Source: Nitzschia sp. pyKryTriq1 (taxonomy: Eukaryota > Bacillariophyta > Bacillariophyceae > Bacillariales > Bacillariaceae). Taken from it: a stretch of DNA of 64,000 nucleotides. Of the stretch, positions 27,121 through 49,071 are shown piece by piece. The notes below the pieces were generated by a model. It saw nothing but the letters and a program-made list of their open reading frames with translations, was not told where the DNA came from and did not search any database. Where the stretch lies: the NCBI GenBank assembly GCA_956465555.1, contig OY101116.1, positions 1,054,001 to 1,118,000 on the forward strand, read 5' to 3'. The number at the start of each line of letters is the position of its first letter. The stretch's first letter is position 1. The translations under genes and the position numbers were made by a program.

Positions 27121-27639
27121 ACTTGATACTCTACGCACGGTTCTACGTGAAGTCAGTATGGATACTAATTCCTTCCGTATGATACACGTTTGGGATCAGA
27201 TGATGATGATTGGGCCTGCCTGGCAGTCGCCCGCTCAATATTATGACCGATTATTGGGTCAGTCGTGTCGTGCGTGTAGCTTCTAGTACAAAATGTACGT
27301 GGGTTTCCTCTTCCTTCATTGGCGCAATTTCTGTGGTTGTTGTGCACTCCTCCTTGCTTCCCCGGATTGCGCGCAGAAGCTTACGTAGTTTCGTTTGACA
27401 GCATCTTCTTTTCTCAACCACTGAACTTGAACTGCGAACTGCGAGGACCGGCGGTTCGTACCGATAAGCGATGTTCAAATCGCAAATCGCGGAAACGAAC
27501 CAAAAGTTGTTTCTACTACATAGACTTCGGGATCGTTTTGGCATTTCTTTCCAAGCGCATTATTTACACTTATTTATTCCATCTACGCAAATAAGAGTGA
27601 GGAGAAGATAGCTCCGCCATACAGTAGAAAAGCTTAACA

Positions 27640-30003
27640 ATGAAGTTCCAGAAAGCAGCTCTCCTCGTTTTGCTTGGCTCCACTTCGGCAGCAGCATTTA
27701 CGCCATCACATAAATTCGGCGTCCGATCACGGGCCACGGCTTTGCGAAGTACGGCTGTCAAAGATGAGGATTTATTCAAGGGCCTTGACCGAAACGGAGC
27801 CATCGAAAAAGACGTTGCCGAGCTCATCACAGCCAGTGGCTCGCCTCCCCCGAAACCTTCGCGAGAAGTTTTGGAGGCGAATGCTGCCCGCATCACAAAG
27901 GCTGGTGTTTCCGATTACATGAAGAAATACGAAGGTCTGTCGGGTGCCGCCATTGTCTACCTGAAGCTCCTTGAAAACGGAGTGGAAGTTGTGAACGGGT
28001 ACTCTGGAGGTGCCGTGTTGCCGCTTCTGGACCAATTCCACCCAGATAACCCGCGCCACAAAGTGATCGGTAAGCCACCGATCCGATGGATCACCAACTC
28101 AAACGAGTCATCGGCAGGACACATTGCCGAAGGGTACGCCAAGTCGATGCCCATCAACGGCAAATTCAAGCCCGTTGGTGTTGTCGTTGCCACCTCTGGA
28201 CCCGGTGTCACAAACCTTATCACTCCTCTCCAAGACGGAATCTGTGATGGTGTTCCTATGGTCGTCCTCTGCGGACAAGCAGCGACGAATGCGCCCGAGG
28301 ATGCATTTCAGTCGGCCCCCGCCGTCGAAATGACAAAACCTTGTACAAAATGGAGCTACCAGATCAAGTCCGCGGCCGAAGTGCCATTCGTCATGGACTA
28401 CGCCTTTTATGTGGCTCGGAATGGCCGCCCGGGACCTGTCTTTGTGGATCTACCCAAGGATCTTCAAAACCAGGTTCTCAGTCCAGAAATGATTCAGATG
28501 TACACGGACACAAAGCTTCCCGAGGCTCCCAGTGATTCCATTGGCATGGCTAGTCTTAAGACGGCAATGCGGGACAACGGTGAGATCTTCAAGGCCATTC
28601 GTCTTGGCTACGAAGACAAAGGTCTTTCCTTCGAGATGATCAAGGAAGATGGCGAGCCAAAGCTCGTCCCTGTGGCTTCATCAAAGGATAGATTCAATGC
28701 GGACCATCACACAACGAACCGTGTCATCTGGACCACCAATGCCTTGACGGGAGAACCTGAACCCATCACTAAGGAAGGTAACCTCGATATGAAAGATCGT
28801 ATTACCACCGACATGCTCAACTTCATCAAGCGAGCAAAGAAGCCTGTCATTATTGCCGGACAGGGATGCAACGATAGTGAGGAGGAGTTGAAGTATTTTG
28901 CAGAGAAACTCAGAATCCCCGTCACCACAACCCTTCATGCGCTTGGTTGCTTTGATGAGAGACACGAGCTTGCTCTGAACATGATGGGCATGCACGGACA
29001 CCCTACACCGAATTTCATGGTTCAAGAGGCTGATCTTATTATTAATATCGGTTCTCGTTTCGACGATCGTATTACGGGAAGAATGCCTGATTTTGTGCCA
29101 GGAGCTAGAAAAGCGGCAGAGCTGGGAGTTGGTGGTATCATCCATGTTGACGTTCGTCTGTCGGAGATGGCAAAGCAGATCGAGCCTCATTTCTTTGTGC
29201 ATTCTACTGGAAAGAATTTCCTTACAACCCTGAACGAAGCCCTTAAAAAGGAAACGGATTTGGTCCCCCAGACGGATAAGTGGGTTGCAAAAATGAAGAC
29301 TTTACAGGCGGAATTCCCTGTTAAGGTTCCGCATTTCCCCACTATTGATGGAAAGACGAGGATGTCGGCACAAAGTGTCATCTCGGAGATGGACAGACAA
29401 ATCCTGGCTGCTGGCAAGATGGATGATGCCATCTTCTCAACTGGTGTGGGGATCCACCAGATGGTCGCAGCGCAGTTGATCACATGGACGAAACCGCGGC
29501 AAATGTTGAGCAGTGGCTCCTTGGGAACAATGGGTGTTGCTCTCGGGTACTGCATTGGAGCAAAACTTGCGAACTGCGGCAAGTTGGTGATTGCCGTGGA
29601 TGGTGATGGCTCGTTCAACATGACGTTTACGGAACTGAAAACTGTTGTGGAACAAGGCATTCCCATTAAGATCATGATTTTGGACAACGAAAGTCAAATG
29701 ATGGTCGAATATTGGCAGAAATTGTTTCACGATGAACGTTTGTTGGCTGTCCGAAACATTAACCCTGACTACGTGACCTTGGCAAAGGCCTTCAATATCA
29801 AGTCCGTCTACTGTGACTGCGAAGAGGAGATCGAGGAGAAAATGCGGGAATTCTTGTTTGACTACGACGATGAGCCCGTCCTTTTCCACGCTCGCATCAA
29901 CCGAACACCTTGCTTACCCCTCGTGGCGCCCGGCCAGCCCCTTGATGACATGATTTTGGAAGACATTGATGTTGAAGTGGACCCCGGTGCTGCCCCGAGT
30001 TAA
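27640..30003 (+). CDS. Acetolactate synthase catalytic subunit, plastid-targeted
   Basis: An intronless frame of 787 residues. This enzyme condenses two pyruvates, or pyruvate and 2-ketobutyrate, using thiamine diphosphate, and is the first shared step of Val, Leu and Ile synthesis. The N-terminal TPP domain has GYSGGAVLP, the catalytic Glu in NESSAGHIAEGYAK (near 155), TSGPGVTN and GRPGPVFVDLPKDL. The middle FAD-type domain has KKPVIIAGQG and GSRFDDRITGR. The C-terminal domain has the TPP/Mg motif GDGSFNMTF (near 656) and VEYWQKLF. SAGHIAEGYA and CTKW are closer to fungal than plant enzymes. The N-terminus is a signal peptide ending SAAAF, the diatom plastid-import type. It is longer than usual (about 670) through an insert near residues 310-380. 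The GQVP loop of plant enzymes reads GQAATNAP here. Confidence 0.93.
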   Translation: MKFQKAALLVLLGSTSAAAFTPSHKFGVRSRATALRSTAVKDEDLFKGLDRNGAIEKDVAELITASGSPPPKPSREVLEANAARITKAGVSDYMKKYEGLSGAAIVYLKLLENGVEVVNGYSGGAVLPLLDQFHPDNPRHKVIGKPPIRWITNSNESSAGHIAEGYAKSMPINGKFKPVGVVVATSGPGVTNLITPLQDGICDGVPMVVLCGQAATNAPEDAFQSAPAVEMTKPCTKWSYQIKSAAEVPFVMDYAFYVARNGRPGPVFVDLPKDLQNQVLSPEMIQMYTDTKLPEAPSDSIGMASLKTAMRDNGEIFKAIRLGYEDKGLSFEMIKEDGEPKLVPVASSKDRFNADHHTTNRVIWTTNALTGEPEPITKEGNLDMKDRITTDMLNFIKRAKKPVIIAGQGCNDSEEELKYFAEKLRIPVTTTLHALGCFDERHELALNMMGMHGHPTPNFMVQEADLIINIGSRFDDRITGRMPDFVPGARKAAELGVGGIIHVDVRLSEMAKQIEPHFFVHSTGKNFLTTLNEALKKETDLVPQTDKWVAKMKTLQAEFPVKVPHFPTIDGKTRMSAQSVISEMDRQILAAGKMDDAIFSTGVGIHQMVAAQLITWTKPRQMLSSGSLGTMGVALGYCIGAKLANCGKLVIAVDGDGSFNMTFTELKTVVEQGIPIKIMILDNESQMMVEYWQKLFHDERLLAVRNINPDYVTLAKAFNIKSVYCDCEEEIEEKMREFLFDYDDEPVLFHARINRTPCLPLVAPGQPLDDMILEDIDVEVDPGAAPS

Positions 30004-41566: not shown

Positions 41567-42365
41567 TTAAGCAACCTCTTCCTTCTTGGATGAAGCCTCT
41601 TGTTTTGATTTCCAGTCCTGTACTGCCGCTTTGATAGCATCCTCCGCCAACATACTGCAGTGAAGCTTGACAGGTGGTAGCTTTAGGTGTGCCGCGATAT
41701 CTGCATTCTTAATGCCCAATACTTCGTCGACGTTTTTCCCTTTGACCCATTCCGTCGCCACACTGGACGACGCAATTGCGCTACCGCAGCCGAAAGTCTT
41801 GAATTTGGATTCGATGATATTTCCATTATCGTCCACTTTAATTTGTAGTTTCATCACATCCCCGCAGGCGGGGGCACCGACAAGTCCCTGAGAGTTTTAA
41901 AAGAAAGGAGAAAAATGAGATTTCTTCGGGTTCAGCGTTCTCACGAATGAAGCTTACGTCAGCAAGGCTTCGGACCTCGTACAGTACTGTAGTTGAAGCA
42001 CCAACCAATCTGGCAGATTCTTCGAGAGACCATCATCATCGCAGCGACGGTCTCTTGAAGACAGCATGGCGGAGGGTACCGTACAGTATGTCGACAGTGA
42101 CAAGATGCCTAGAGTACCAAACGACAAGTCGAGGGCTCGAAATTCAAGTCGGCTGCGCAAGCAATGAAAACCAGGCGAGTACAAGTACGCGCGCGAAACT
42201 TACCGTCCCAACGGAGTTATCTTTCTTGTCCAGCGATCCAACGTTTCGTGGGTTTTCGTAGTGTTCAACGATATTGTCATGATAGAGTCTTGTTTGAATA
42301 GTGGGAGCCGCTCTACGGGCGAGGACTCTGGCAGCAGATCGGGCAGTCGAAGTGAGCATCATCAT
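41567..42365 (-). CDS. ISCU: Iron-sulfur cluster scaffold IscU (mitochondrial)
   Basis: Exons 42365..42204 and 41887..41567 join in phase 0 across a 316-bp intron into 160 residues. Exon 1 has a mitochondrial presequence (MMMLTSTARSAARVLARR) and the start of the mature protein (YHDNIVEHYENPRNVGS). Exon 2 carries the three cluster-ligand cysteines in APACGDVMKLQI, FKTFGCGSAIASSS and LHCSMLAEDAI, plus LPPVKLHC, the conserved segment recognised by the HSP70 chaperone. IscU receives sulfur from the NFS1 cysteine desulfurase and assembles [2Fe-2S] clusters in the matrix. A Lys/Glu-rich tail of about 15 residues follows. ATG triplets at 42365 and 42362 are both possible starts. Confidence 0.97.
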
Positions 42366-43308: not shown

Positions 43309-43808
43309 CGAACGAACCAACGAACGGGCATAGACTGTCCTACCTTGAGTGAACGAACACGCCCGTCTCGGCGACCAAGAATGAAAGAACTTGTAGGCAG
43401 CAAGGTGTATTGGTGGTCCGACGAAGAAGGAACGACGGGAGAGGAAGATACTCACTTTGGACATGACATCTTGAGATTGCTCTATCCACGATTGGATTGG
43501 ATCCATGTCATGCGCGACTGACCGCGAACTCTACTAGACTAGCTGCTACCTCTCTCTACTACTACGGTAGAGAGGATCTTCTTTGGTCGTTGGAGGCAAA
43601 GATCGGCCGGCGTGGCCCAGCTCGACTATCCATTGTGGTAGAGAAACTACAGCAACGAAGTCGTACATGCGACATTCGGGGTGATCATCCGAAAGCACGA
43701 CAAGATTTTCAAATTTCTTCCGCAGTCGATGTTTTTGACTTCCATTTTCATTCCAAACCCATTTGGCAACGGTACTCGTATTTCTCTTATCGATATCACC
43801 TTTGCACC
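43309..43808. other. Spacer TMEM234 / CXC gene
   Basis: Holds TMEM234 3' UTR and the CXC gene's 5' region. The CXC reading frame is open upstream to about 43497 but has no ATG there. No other feature is seen. Confidence 0.5.
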
Positions 43809-45381
43809 ATGAAGGCCACCACAAGCCCAGACGAGATGATCTCCAAGCCTCCTGCAACGCAAGACAGGCCAGCGACAATTGCTTCGGACCACGATGATCG
43901 TGGAAGGCACCATTCGGAAATTCCCGCCACCCGAAAGGAAGAAGCACCGCATCGATTTTCTTTCGTTCCTTCTCGAAGTGACGAAAACGATCATCTTGCT
44001 GGTAATGCAGACGCACCATCCGAACCTCGACTTGTTGCCCTCAAGACACCGCCTCCTGTTCCGCTTCGGCGAGAACCGTCCCGCGGTCCCTTGAAGAAGC
44101 GGCCCACTTCGCCAATCCCGCATCGAGGAGCACCGTCTCACAAACCGTTGGTGGCGCAAGCGAGCCTTCACTCAATGCCTTCTGCACCTCTACTGCGACA
44201 GTCGTCGTCCTCGTTCAGCGTGTATTCGCACCACCAGCATTTCCCGCCACAGCTTTGTTTGACCTCGAGCTGTGGCCGACAGCTCATGTCAGAGCCCCTT
44301 CTTGCAACCCCGAACCATGTTGGCGTGACGCCTCGGTCGGCGTTGGCGCCTGGAAACTCTGATACTGGGCAGCTTCTAGCAGTAGGTGAGCCGTTGAAGA
44401 GGCATCGTCACCAGCACCAGCAGCATGGGAACGCAACTCCAGGCCTCGACTTGTTGGCGGATCAAGTGGTCATGAGCGGACGCCGCGTGGCGCATCCCGT
44501 TCCTGTCACTGCACCTCGATCGACAGAAACAAAGAGGCTGCCGATGCACGCGTCCTACCTCTCCTCCTCATCCGCGTACAATCATCGTCATCATTATCCT
44601 ACACCTCCCGGCGTGCCGCGTTCTGGCACCGGCTATTGGGATCAATCGTCTGGCTACGGGGGATACCACTCGTATCCGCCACCAACTCACCACTATGGGC
44701 GCCCATACGAATACGAGTACGAGTATGTACCTCCTCCCAGGGAAAGTCACGCCCAACGTATTCACACAATTCCTCCGTCTGGTCACAAGAATCATCAATC
44801 GAGACCTCGTGTCGCCGTTCTCAAGAAAGAGGTCGCCAAATATCCTGGTCCCTATCTCCCTCCAGAGGATCCTGTCGCATCACTTCCTGCTCTCTTTGCA
44901 GATGCTCCAACCACGCGCAAATCATGCAAGTGTGGGAACTCCCAGTGTCTCAAGCTCTATTGTGAATGCTTTCATAACGGTGCGCTCTGTGATAGCGAAA
45001 TATGCCGTTGCGCAGACTGCAAGAACAACGACGGTAATAACGAGCCAAAAGGAGCACGGGAGTATGCCATCCTCAAGATCATGGCGAAGCGACCCGATGC
45101 TTTTCACCACAAGGTCAAGCGTCGAACCGGGAACTGGTGCAAATGCAAAAAGAGCAAGTACGTGCCTCTTTCCATGCGTGTGTTTTTGTCGTGTGCACCC
45201 TTTATCTTCTTTTCCTCTGTCCATCGTTCTTACCTGTCGTCCTCTTCGTTGTCTGTCCTCCTATTATACTCCCTATAATCATAGTTGTCTCAAGAAATAC
45301 TGTGAATGTGTCGCACAGGGACGATCTTGCGGAGCGGTCTGCAAGTGCAGTGACTGTAAGAACATTGACAAGAAAGTTTAA
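43809..45381 (+). CDS. Tesmin/TSO1-like CXC (CRC) domain protein
   Basis: Exons 43809..45157 and 45285..45381 join across a 127-bp intron to 481 residues. The splice completes the second CXC half as CKCKKSNCLKKYCECVAQG. The CRC domain (residues about 370-480) has two Cys-rich modules (KSCKCGNSQCLKLYCECF, CRCADCKNND; then CLKKYCEC, CGAVCKCSDCKN) around a conserved linker with the RNP-like ILKIMAKRPDAF. CRC proteins (LIN54, tesmin, TSO1) bind CHR-type DNA (TTYGAA), and LIN54 anchors the DREAM/MuvB cell-cycle repressor. The N-terminal 360 residues are Pro/His/Ser/Tyr-rich and look disordered. The domain sits at the very C-terminus, ending in IDKKV. The start is the first ATG of the frame. Confidence 0.92.
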
Positions 45382-45564: not shown

Positions 45565-48500
45565 CTATCTCCCAAGCTTGTCGACAACCTCTTGTGCCAT
45601 CTTAATATCAGCTTGAACTTTCTTTCTTCGGTAAAATTGACAAGCGCAGCCATCACCCGTGCACATGATATCCGAATGGACGCTACCGTGAATGCGTTGT
45701 GCCGCGGACCAGAGATCCGCATAGCGAAGTTCCGCCTCGCGCAAGTTCTCCAACTTTTCCATGTAAATGTTAGCCTCACGAGGTAAGCAGTGTTTGCAGA
45801 GGAACCCCTTGGTGGAATCCACCGAGGCCTTGCAGCCAATGCAGGTGGCCGTCTTGACAGTAAACATCATTAGACTTCCCTTACGCGCAGATGGAGTCGG
45901 AATGAAAAGCTTTCGAGTATGGTCACCTTGCAATAGCGTCTTTTCCACATCGTCGATGATGGGCTCGAAGATTCGCTGCAGGGGCTTGGAGAGTTGGTTG
46001 GTCAAGTACCACTTGGCGTCCAAAGCCAAGTTGTTTTCCAAGACGTAAATAGGATCTTCCGCCTTTTCGAAATTCTTGGCACCCTTGGCGCCAGTAATCA
46101 TGACATAGGGCACACGATCACCCATCTGAGGAGCTGATCCTGCGTCACGCTTCTTCATTCGGGCCGCAAGCTCTACGTGAGCTTGCTTCATCTTGTAGTC
46201 CTCTGCCTTTCCTCCCAGACCTAAAGCATACTCAGCACCCTTGTTGAGACTCTTGGTAATGACCAAACGAGAAATGTCCATTTTGTTTTGCAGCAAATCC
46301 GCAATTTGGGATTTGACATAGTTCTTGGCTCCTTCCACATCCTGGTGAATCAAGATCTTATCCAATGACGTTTGAATGACCTCACGGACCAAGGCGCAGT
46401 TATCACGACGAACCGTCTCTAGACCCTTGGTGTCCATCTTATCGAACTTGTCGGGCTTGGTCCACATTAAACCAGCATATCGCTTCTTGTTCATAAGCAA
46501 GTACGGGAAGTATACCTTCTCAAATTCAAGCTCGATGGGGCTGGGAAAGATTTCAGAACAGCGTTCGGCAGCTTCCAAGGCAAGAGGAAAAGTTTCTTCG
46601 ACCGTTTTACATCCAAACTTGACCATGACAGAATCTGTGTCACCGTAAACTACCTGAGCATCGTGCTTGTATCCATTCGCTACCGTGTAGTTTTCCTCCA
46701 CAAATTCTTTGGTCTTTTCCAAGAGGAATCGACCGTACGAGGTGGTGGAAGATGCAATGGGAACACATGGCAGTTGACCCACTGTCGCTCCAGTAAAACC
46801 GTAGACCGAGTTGGCCGAAACCTTCAAGGCCAACTGACGCCCATTCTGGACGGCACGTTCGAATTCGGTGGGTGCATTCTTCATGTCCTTCTTGGCACGC
46901 TTACGGGCGGCCAAGAGCTCAGATAAAATAGTTGGCAAAATTCCTGTTTTGGTTTCCGAGTTGACAAAGACGTGACCGTTCTCGCTCTTTTTGTAAGTGC
47001 TTGGGTCGAGCTTGGAGACATCTGCCGGATTTACCAGAGTCGAATAGCAAAGATTGTAAGCTTGCATGATTGACGGGTACAAAGAGGCGAAATCCAGTGT
47101 GGCAATGGGAACTTGGTAATAGCTCTTGATGGGGTCCAAGACCGTGGCACCTTCGTACGCAACATCATCGGATTGAAATCCAGCCTTTTTGAGTGTAGGC
47201 ACCAACAACTTTTCGTTGCGGCATTTTCGCAAAATCATGGAAAAGACCTTGATTTGCTGCCCACGGGTAATCAAAAAACTCATGGGAACACCCGTCACAC
47301 GAGCCATTTCGATGTAGTTGACCATGACAGAAAGCTTGTCCATGAGACGTTGTGGGAGGGCCGCATCTTTCAGGCAGTAAACGGCGAGGCGGTGACGGTC
47401 TTCGTCGCTACCATTTTGCAAGTCGGAAATGATACTGTGGTGGACATCTTCCTTCTGTTGGCCAAGGTATTCGGCACAAACACTATTGAGCGAGTAGGAG
47501 CTAAGCTTGTGGTTTCGTTGCATGTAAGGAAGCATATCGAAAATGACGCGACCCTCGATGGTCGTCTCAATGTTGTTCCGTTTTCCAAAGGCCGCCGACT
47601 GGAAGGTAGTATCCCGCATCTTGGCTTTGCTTCCACGAATCCGACCCCAATACGCAAAATTCTTGACCACATCTGATTTCTTTTCCAGCGTCGCTGCCCG
47701 ATCCAACAAATAGGGGATGTCGAAATTTTGAACGTTATATCCCGTAATGACATCGGGATCACACGCTTGAAGAAACTTTTGCCATTTCATCAACAGTGCC
47801 CCTTCTTCCTCACTGGAGATGACTTGTGCTCCTACAATGGGTAAACATCCTCGGAGAGTAAAGACATTTTTCACCAGGGGAGTCTTTTCTCCGTAGACGC
47901 TCAGTGTGTTGGCGATTTGAATGACAGGATCCTTTTCTGCCTCGGGAAAATATCCTTTACGGCCTTGGCACTCAATATCGAATGAGAGAGTTCGAATAGG
48001 CGCCACCTTGCTCCACTCGCCTTCGGGTTTGCGGGAGATGACATCTGTGTAGGTAATGTCGATTTCCGCCTGTGAAACGAAAAATATATAGTTAGAAGAG
48101 TCGTCGTTGGCGTAAAAAGACAATATCTTTGCATCGCATCATCGTACCTGGCAGTGGGTCTGCTTCTTGCTGGCATCTCGTACTTGGTAGGTCTTGGCGG
48201 GCAAAGTGAGCCAACCAGCGCCCGAAATATCCTGGTCGATCATGTATCGAAGCACATAGGGCACATTGCACTCAAAGGGACTGTAGAGGTTGTCTCCTGA
48301 CACGGTCACACCCGCCAAGTCCATACCCTCTTCCAAGATACGCTTGAGGGTAGGAATCAAAGTCGGCATGGCGACATGGACTTTGAAGAAGTGAGTATGC
48401 GGGGATTCGTATCCCATAATGGACTTGAAGGATGTGACATAGCTGACCGATCGACAGTACTCCATGAGCTTGGTGCCTCGGGCGGCTCCTTCCAAGCGGT

Positions 48501-49071
48501 TGTTGAGGGAGGCCCGGATATTGGCCAGGTTCTCCTCTGTGTTTTCAAAGGTGGCATTGGCAGGCAGAGCAAAATAGCCATACGGCGTGAATCCGTGGAT
48601 AAAGACTGAAACCGAATTGCCCTGCTCCGTCACACCATAGGCGCGAATGACGGGCACTTGGCCGGTAGAAGAGCCCACCACGCGTTGGCGGTTCTCCTCC
48701 AACTCGCTGGGGTGCTGGTCGAGTGCATTTCCACCGATCATATCCATGTCGAACCACTGCAACGAGACATCTTGAATGTTGTCGTTGACTTGATTCGCAG
48801 GACGCAACCATCGCTGGCGCATCTCTTCCGTAATGTCAGAGAAAACGGAGTCATCCAGCGCGGTGAGATCCTCATCCAGCATGTCCTCAGGAGGTTGTTC
48901 TTCCAGCATGTCGATCTCTTCTTCGTCTGGTTCCGGATAGTAGTCGTCTACGTCTCCTCCCCCGCGAAGACGTTTGACCGGTGGAGCCATGAATTGCAAA
49001 TCTTCCTCATCTTCGGGCACAACTTCGAGTGCCAACGAGGCAGGCGCACGTTTTGTGGGGCTGCTGCTCAT
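45565..49071 (-). CDS. POLD1: DNA polymerase delta catalytic subunit
   Basis: Exons 49071..48148 and 48069..45565 join in phase 0 across a 79-bp intron to 1142 residues. Exonuclease motifs are intact: SFDIEC (Asp339, Glu341), GYNVQNFDIPYLLDR, and YCLKDAALPQRLMDK. Polymerase motif A DFASLYPSI (near 632), motif B LKVSANSVYGFTG and motif C YGDTDSV (near 782) are present. This is the replicative polymerase of the lagging strand, with proofreading. The C-terminal CysA zinc site (CIGCK, CKHC, near 1050) is complete. The CysB site, which in other eukaryotes holds [4Fe-4S] through four Cys, reads LWSAAQRIHGSVHSDIMC then TGDGCACQFYRR: the first two expected cysteines are Ala and Ile. An acidic N-terminal region (residues 20-75) precedes the B-family core. 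Confidence 0.98.

Follow-up and report, generated by a model that had tools for sequence, protein, structure and literature searches.

The window analysed here, i.e. the whole stretch of 64,000 nucleotides of Nitzschia sp. contig OY101116.1, carries on its minus strand a gene for POLD1 (49071..45565). A model of 1142 residues was built for this gene from homology and GT..AG intron boundaries, and its features are collected in Table 1. Pfam analysis of exon 1 detected the beginning of the exonuclease domain (27.3 bits, cut-off 23) and POL3_N at 23.8 bits, slightly below the cut-off of 24.1. In exon 2, matches to PF00136 (E 3.2e-146), PF03104 and PF14260 (zf-C4pol, 44.8 bits vs a cut-off of 28.9) were found. 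The best PDB match was human POLD1 (E 4.8e-279), followed by yeast Pol3 (2.7e-271), with yeast Rev3 far behind at only about 4e-71. The predicted protein is POLD1 by every domain criterion applied.

The 3' end of POLD1 is convergent with a Tesmin/TSO1-like CXC-domain gene (43467-45381, plus strand), in whose second exon an apparent second CXC-like repeat was seen by eye near 45290-45381. An exon of an ISCU-type iron-sulfur scaffold (41567-41896, minus strand; NifU_N, E 1.4e-40) lies about 4 kb from POLD1, probably by coincidence. A putative thiamine-pyrophosphate enzyme gene with three TPP_enzyme domains, perhaps an acetolactate synthase, is located at 27628-30003.

Table 1. Positions of the POLD1 exons, intron and cysteine motifs in the window, and of the locus with the last POLE exon in the same genome.
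Feature	Position	Strand	Description
POLD1 exon 1	48148..49071	-	308 aa; putative start codon ATG at 49071
POLD1 intron	48070..48147	-	78 nt, GT..AG; predicted by homology, joins the frame of exon 1 to exon 2
POLD1 exon 2	45565..48069	-	834 aa + stop; most of the exonuclease domain, polymerase, CTD
CysA zinc motif	45787..45843	-	four Cys present (CIGC...CKHC)
CysB	45640..45711	-	Ala1098, Ile1101, Cys1111, Cys1116, extra Cys1118, extra His1102; Arg1100 and His1106 kept
POLE last exon	C3:2016400-2026200 (locus of the same genome)		joined across a GT..AG intron

In order to examine the cysteine motifs, the diatom protein was aligned with human and yeast POLD1; the residue numbers used for CysB follow the inferred gene model. 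The CysB of the diatom protein reads LWSAAQRIHGSVHSDIMCTGDGCAC; LWSAAQRIHGSVHSDIMCTGDGC is the gap-free counterpart of the human CysB segment, and the alignment to both references runs without gaps from LW through ligand 4. The positions of ligands 1 and 2, which are Cys in human and yeast, are occupied by Ala1098 (GCA, 45702-45700) and Ile1101 (ATT, 45693-45691), exactly as the original prediction had claimed; the alignment and the codon-by-codon reading agree on this point. Ligand 3 (Cys1111, TGC, 45663-45661) and ligand 4 (Cys1116, TGC, 45648-45646) retain the standard C-x4-C spacing, so that the motif of this POLD1 is A-x2-I...C-x4-C instead of the canonical [4Fe-4S] pattern C-x2-C...C-x4-C. 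The additional cysteine noted earlier close to ligand 4 is Cys1118 (TGT, 45642-45640), which comes with a one-residue insertion after ligand 4. Moreover, a His (His1102) directly follows ligand 2, at a position that is Gln in human and Ala in yeast. The description of CysA and the remaining enzyme as normal was likewise borne out, both by the four CysA cysteines, in a motif with 12 of 23 positions identical to human, and by the strong POLD1 domain and PDB matches.

The CysB of the diatom is identical to human at 11 of 23 positions and to yeast at 9 of 23, compared with 14 of 23 between human and yeast. Judged by these identities, there is no overall decay of CysB, despite the loss of ligands 1 and 2. 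The helix between CysA and CysB (20 columns) matches human at four positions and yeast at five, with nine shared by human and yeast. All four CysB cysteines are present in each of the three other POLD1 sequences that were reached, namely the human and yeast PDB chains and a eukaryote-type copy (L019, see below). As two of the four ligands are missing from a strongly matching POLD1 found in a single copy, a canonical four-Cys [4Fe-4S] cluster in this CysB is, on sequence grounds, very unlikely.

The copy number was determined by a search of the genome (40.65 Mb, 20 contigs), which gave one full match to POLD1 and one match to zf-C4pol; eight silicon-transporter matches above the cut-off were also detected, which make a diatom origin very probable. 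Four further polymerase matches, 29-46% identical and located at two places, were taken to be Pol alpha and Pol zeta. No second POLD1 copy was found across the searched genome, and hence no second enzyme able to carry the function was seen.

As the case is built on genome sequence, an artefact was considered, i.e. a sequencing error, a wrongly spliced model, a paralogue or a pseudogene. The conversion of a Cys codon (TGY) to GCA takes three substitutions and that to ATT at least two, and since at least five substitutions are required in total, a read error at these codons is not credible. Additionally, the residues Q, R, G and H between the ligands are identical to those of human and yeast, and the frame is open. 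In order to evaluate splicing, introns of the form GT[AG]...[CT]AG with a length of 30-300 nt were scanned inside 45568-45993. The five candidates share an acceptor at 45683, within the motif, and all of them remove ligand positions 1 and 2; an intron restoring CxxC was not present among the candidates scanned in this interval, and such splicing was dropped as an explanation. Both of the objections anticipated in the original prediction, an alternative splice and an error at these codons, are thus unlikely to account for the observation, and with a single copy found, we consider an artefact of any kind highly improbable.

Pol delta is the main lagging-strand DNA polymerase and Pol epsilon is the leading-strand polymerase. 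CysB was read in four family-B polymerases, alpha, delta, epsilon and zeta. Pol alpha, aligned with the yeast protein, has four CysB cysteines (CDDPACG...CLNRGC). A new observation made here concerns Pol epsilon of this genome, in which likewise only two of the four CysB cysteines are left: Thr stands at ligand 2 and Ser at ligand 3, while its CysA is complete. The Pol epsilon segment DIRCSKTNRVATNTLSRVSACGADF aligns gap-free to human POLE, and no evident replacement ligand was found in it. A CxxC-x8-C stretch of Pol epsilon is a candidate for CysX. In Pol zeta (REV3), four CysB cysteines were recognized by eye (CSRC...CVCIDC). PF14260 spans the REV3 CTD, but its 21.6 bits fall short of the cut-off of 28.9. 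In PDB searches, the REV3 polymerase exon matched yeast Rev3 best, and the CTD exon alone found nothing. Also by eye, the REV3 CTD (2375-2929 of the REV3 locus) contains two Cys beyond the four canonical ones (CNGC, CVC), and a long insert separates the two halves of its CysB.

The primase subunit PRIM2 keeps in the alignment the four cysteines that we take to be its cluster ligands, and MMS19 gave a partial match above the cut-off (positions 93-203 of 262). A general loss of nuclear Fe-S capacity was rejected, given the MMS19 match, the PRIM2 ligands and the REV3 CysB read by eye, and since cluster supply appears to be kept, the change looks local. Among the polymerases and primase read, the observed ligand losses are confined to both elongating replicases, delta and epsilon. 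Because two of its four cysteines are gone and no obvious new ligand is seen, metal loss at CysB seems to be tolerated in Pol epsilon too.

In the human Pol delta structure, Glu1048, Arg1060 and His1066 of p125 contact Glu136, Asp137 and Glu138 of p50 (PMC7048817), and our comparison of the interface covers these named docking residues, three on each subunit. The equivalents of the three p125 residues are all kept in the alignment of the diatom POLD1. The diatom POLD2 has Glu-Asp-Glu at the positions of human p50 136-138, within the sequence LEDESGR, which is identical to yeast. POLD2 occurs once in the genome (PF18018 and PF04042; best PDB matches Pol31/POLD2), as do the B-subunits POLE2 and POLA2, and POLD3 gave one match (PF09507, 45.6 bits over a cut-off of 24.5). 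A search of the genome for POLD4 (p12), run without a positive control, gave no match; POLD4 is reported to be missing from budding yeast (PMC2734569). The original prediction had also suggested that the interface with the B-subunit may be changed. The poorly conserved helix before CysB speaks for such a change, whereas the retained docking residues of both subunits speak against it, as does the fact that POLD2 is expected to serve REV3 as well, whose CysB is complete by eye. A changed interface is the less well supported part of the original prediction.

Other residues of the B-subunit have been connected to CysB in yeast, where Pol31 K358E suppresses the CysB mutant pol3-13 (PMC2734569) and Pol31 T415 and W417 tune CysB binding (PMC8321694). 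At the positions of K358, T415 and W417, the diatom POLD2 has Ala, Ser and Pro, and the human protein has Gln, Thr and Gly. These three sites say little, since human differs there too, lacking K358 and W417, and they were dropped as support for our main reading.

The Pol delta CysB cysteines have been described as invariant, with a conservation that reaches from human to yeast (PMC6613617). What the cluster does is said to be uncertain, the options being a structural glue, a redox sensor or a fidelity element (PMC7720213). In a human POLD1 CTD fragment, replacement of any CysB Cys by Ala was reported to cut iron uptake strongly, and in the full-length protein the third Cys contributes less to iron (PMC6613617). 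All four subunits of human Pol delta assemble with POLD1 C1076S, with POLD2 and POLD4 reduced when PCNA is absent, and PCNA gives this enzyme back its stability and much of its synthesis; the cluster-less enzyme has a weaker exonuclease and a lower fidelity even with PCNA (PMC6613617). In yeast, as reported in the same paper, the small subunits no longer bind in vitro once the CysB cluster is lost (PMC6613617).

The diatom POLD1 shares with human POLD1 and yeast Pol3 the family B polymerase and exonuclease domains, CysA, the docking residues and the POLD2/POLD3 partners; it differs in the Ala and Ile at ligands 1 and 2, the His after ligand 2, and the inserted residue and extra Cys after ligand 4. 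With yeast pol3-13 (C1074S) and human C1076S it has in common a CysB that lacks a ligand while the rest of the catalytic subunit is normal. However, these are single-ligand laboratory mutants with defects, whereas the diatom gene is natural, has two other ligands replaced and carries further changes nearby. The zinc-type CysB of Pol alpha and Pol epsilon offers another comparison, as a homologous CTD that docks its B-subunit without an Fe-S cluster at CysB, but the reference proteins have four ligands and a three-helix bundle, whereas the diatom POLD1 is of the delta/zeta type with two canonical ligands. REV3 of the same genome also has a CTD of the delta/zeta type and, unlike POLD1, retains all four CysB cysteines as read by eye.

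With two ligands absent from a strong POLD1 found only once, the alternatives named in the original prediction, a cluster either lost or rebuilt, proved to be the right pair. We favour the loss, and assign a probability of about 0.5 to the reading that this is a functional POLD1 without the canonical CysB [4Fe-4S] cluster, whose CysB still docks POLD2 by protein contacts. The salt-bridging residues that remain would allow CysB to dock the B-subunit POLD2 and, via POLD2, also POLD3, and Ala and Ile would fill the cluster side of the CysB fold. PCNA, bound via CysA, which is intact, and via the CTD peptide, would supply the remaining stability of the holoenzyme, as in the cluster-less human Pol delta, and redox control through the CysB cluster would be absent. 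The missing ligands, the kept docking residues, the single copies found and the half-loss in Pol epsilon support the lost-cluster reading, and the assembly of cluster-less human Pol delta offers a precedent by analogy; the absence of the cluster, the continued binding of POLD2 and the part played by Ala and Ile are what we infer. Against it stands the abolished subunit binding in yeast, an in vitro result from which it follows that tolerance of cluster loss is not general, together with the exonuclease and fidelity defects of the human cluster-less enzyme. Moreover, the helix preceding CysB, which lies on p50 in the human structure, matches human at just the 4 of 20 positions given above, and the motif retains three Cys and an extra His, which plain loss would not explain.

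These last residues are the starting point for a rebuilt Cys3His site, in which Cys1111, Cys1116 and Cys1118 together with His1102 or His1106 could hold zinc or a non-canonical Fe-S centre and keep the fold rigid. Three features coincide with the losses (the His after ligand 2, the inserted residue and the extra Cys), and the CysB of Pol alpha and Pol epsilon has been reported as zinc-binding (PMC7544198), which makes zinc plausible at the homologous POLD1 site; a POLD2 that is expected to fit the complete CysB of REV3 would also favour a kept shape. On the other hand, it would not be improbable for a further Cys and a further His to arise by chance in such a short stretch, and Pol epsilon is missing two ligands, with nothing obvious in their place. 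As this loss occurs without a visible replacement ligand, the lost-cluster option is favoured over the rebuilt site, which we regard as a possible, though somewhat doubtful, alternative. The CTD and an 857-residue ORF were modelled with AlphaFold (mean pLDDT 45 with a two-row alignment and 34 with three rows, respectively), and both models were too poor for geometry. The two canonical Cys left at C-x4-C spacing and the presence of cluster machinery (the MMS19 match) would be compatible with weak or transient binding of a [4Fe-4S] cluster by incomplete ligation (two or three Cys and another ligand), with function unchanged. However, human POLD1 contains much less iron when a single CysB Cys is missing (PMC6613617), and here two ligands are gone, namely the CxxC pair, which makes such binding improbable.

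An ordinary relaxed drift of CysB across diatoms or stramenopiles, undescribed so far, overlaps with the other readings, and its odds stand outside their sum. The CysB of Pol epsilon is half lost in the same genome, and the Pol epsilon site can be weak, as a yeast structure has weak density at CysB and was built without a metal there (PMC7308368). Nevertheless, the human Pol epsilon CysB holds zinc in a crystal structure (PMC9581978), and the diatom POLD1 CysB still shows the 11 of 23 identities with human, against 14 of 23 for human and yeast, despite its lost ligands. Drift is on this evidence rather unlikely.

Returning to the lost-cluster reading, the delta and epsilon replicases may function without their usual metal site here, as far as can be judged from the predicted proteins. 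We tentatively propose, with well under even odds, that both gave up the CysB metal while Pol alpha, Pol zeta and primase retain their ligands, which would take the CysB iron-sulfur switch specifically out of bulk DNA synthesis in this diatom and perhaps in its whole lineage, conceivably an adaptation to a scarcity of iron or to oxidative stress. A natural Pol delta that lacks two ligands but keeps its docking residues would separate docking from the role of the cluster, and the half-loss in Pol epsilon suggests that the CysB metals of the elongating replicases are dispensable in an alga. In Toxoplasma, an alveolate, POLD1 levels drop upon depletion of ABCB7L, a transporter for cytosolic Fe-S supply (PMC11481526); unlike there, no direct effect of this type on POLD1 levels is predicted for the diatom.

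The observation concerns one genome. Among the matches listed in the open-licence PubMed Central literature, as represented by titles and the starts of abstracts, none dealt with the loss of CysB in diatoms or other algae, a silence that is weak evidence of novelty. Peptide-pattern scans, with few patterns each, detected no POLD1 in viral contigs, and in genome contigs they detected one, the L019 copy mentioned above (NYXK01000071.1:167963-176933). The gene is of the eukaryote type and apparently has an intron, and its contig is filed under a metagenome-assembled genome of Deltaproteobacteria; the record is for this reason probably at least partly eukaryotic.
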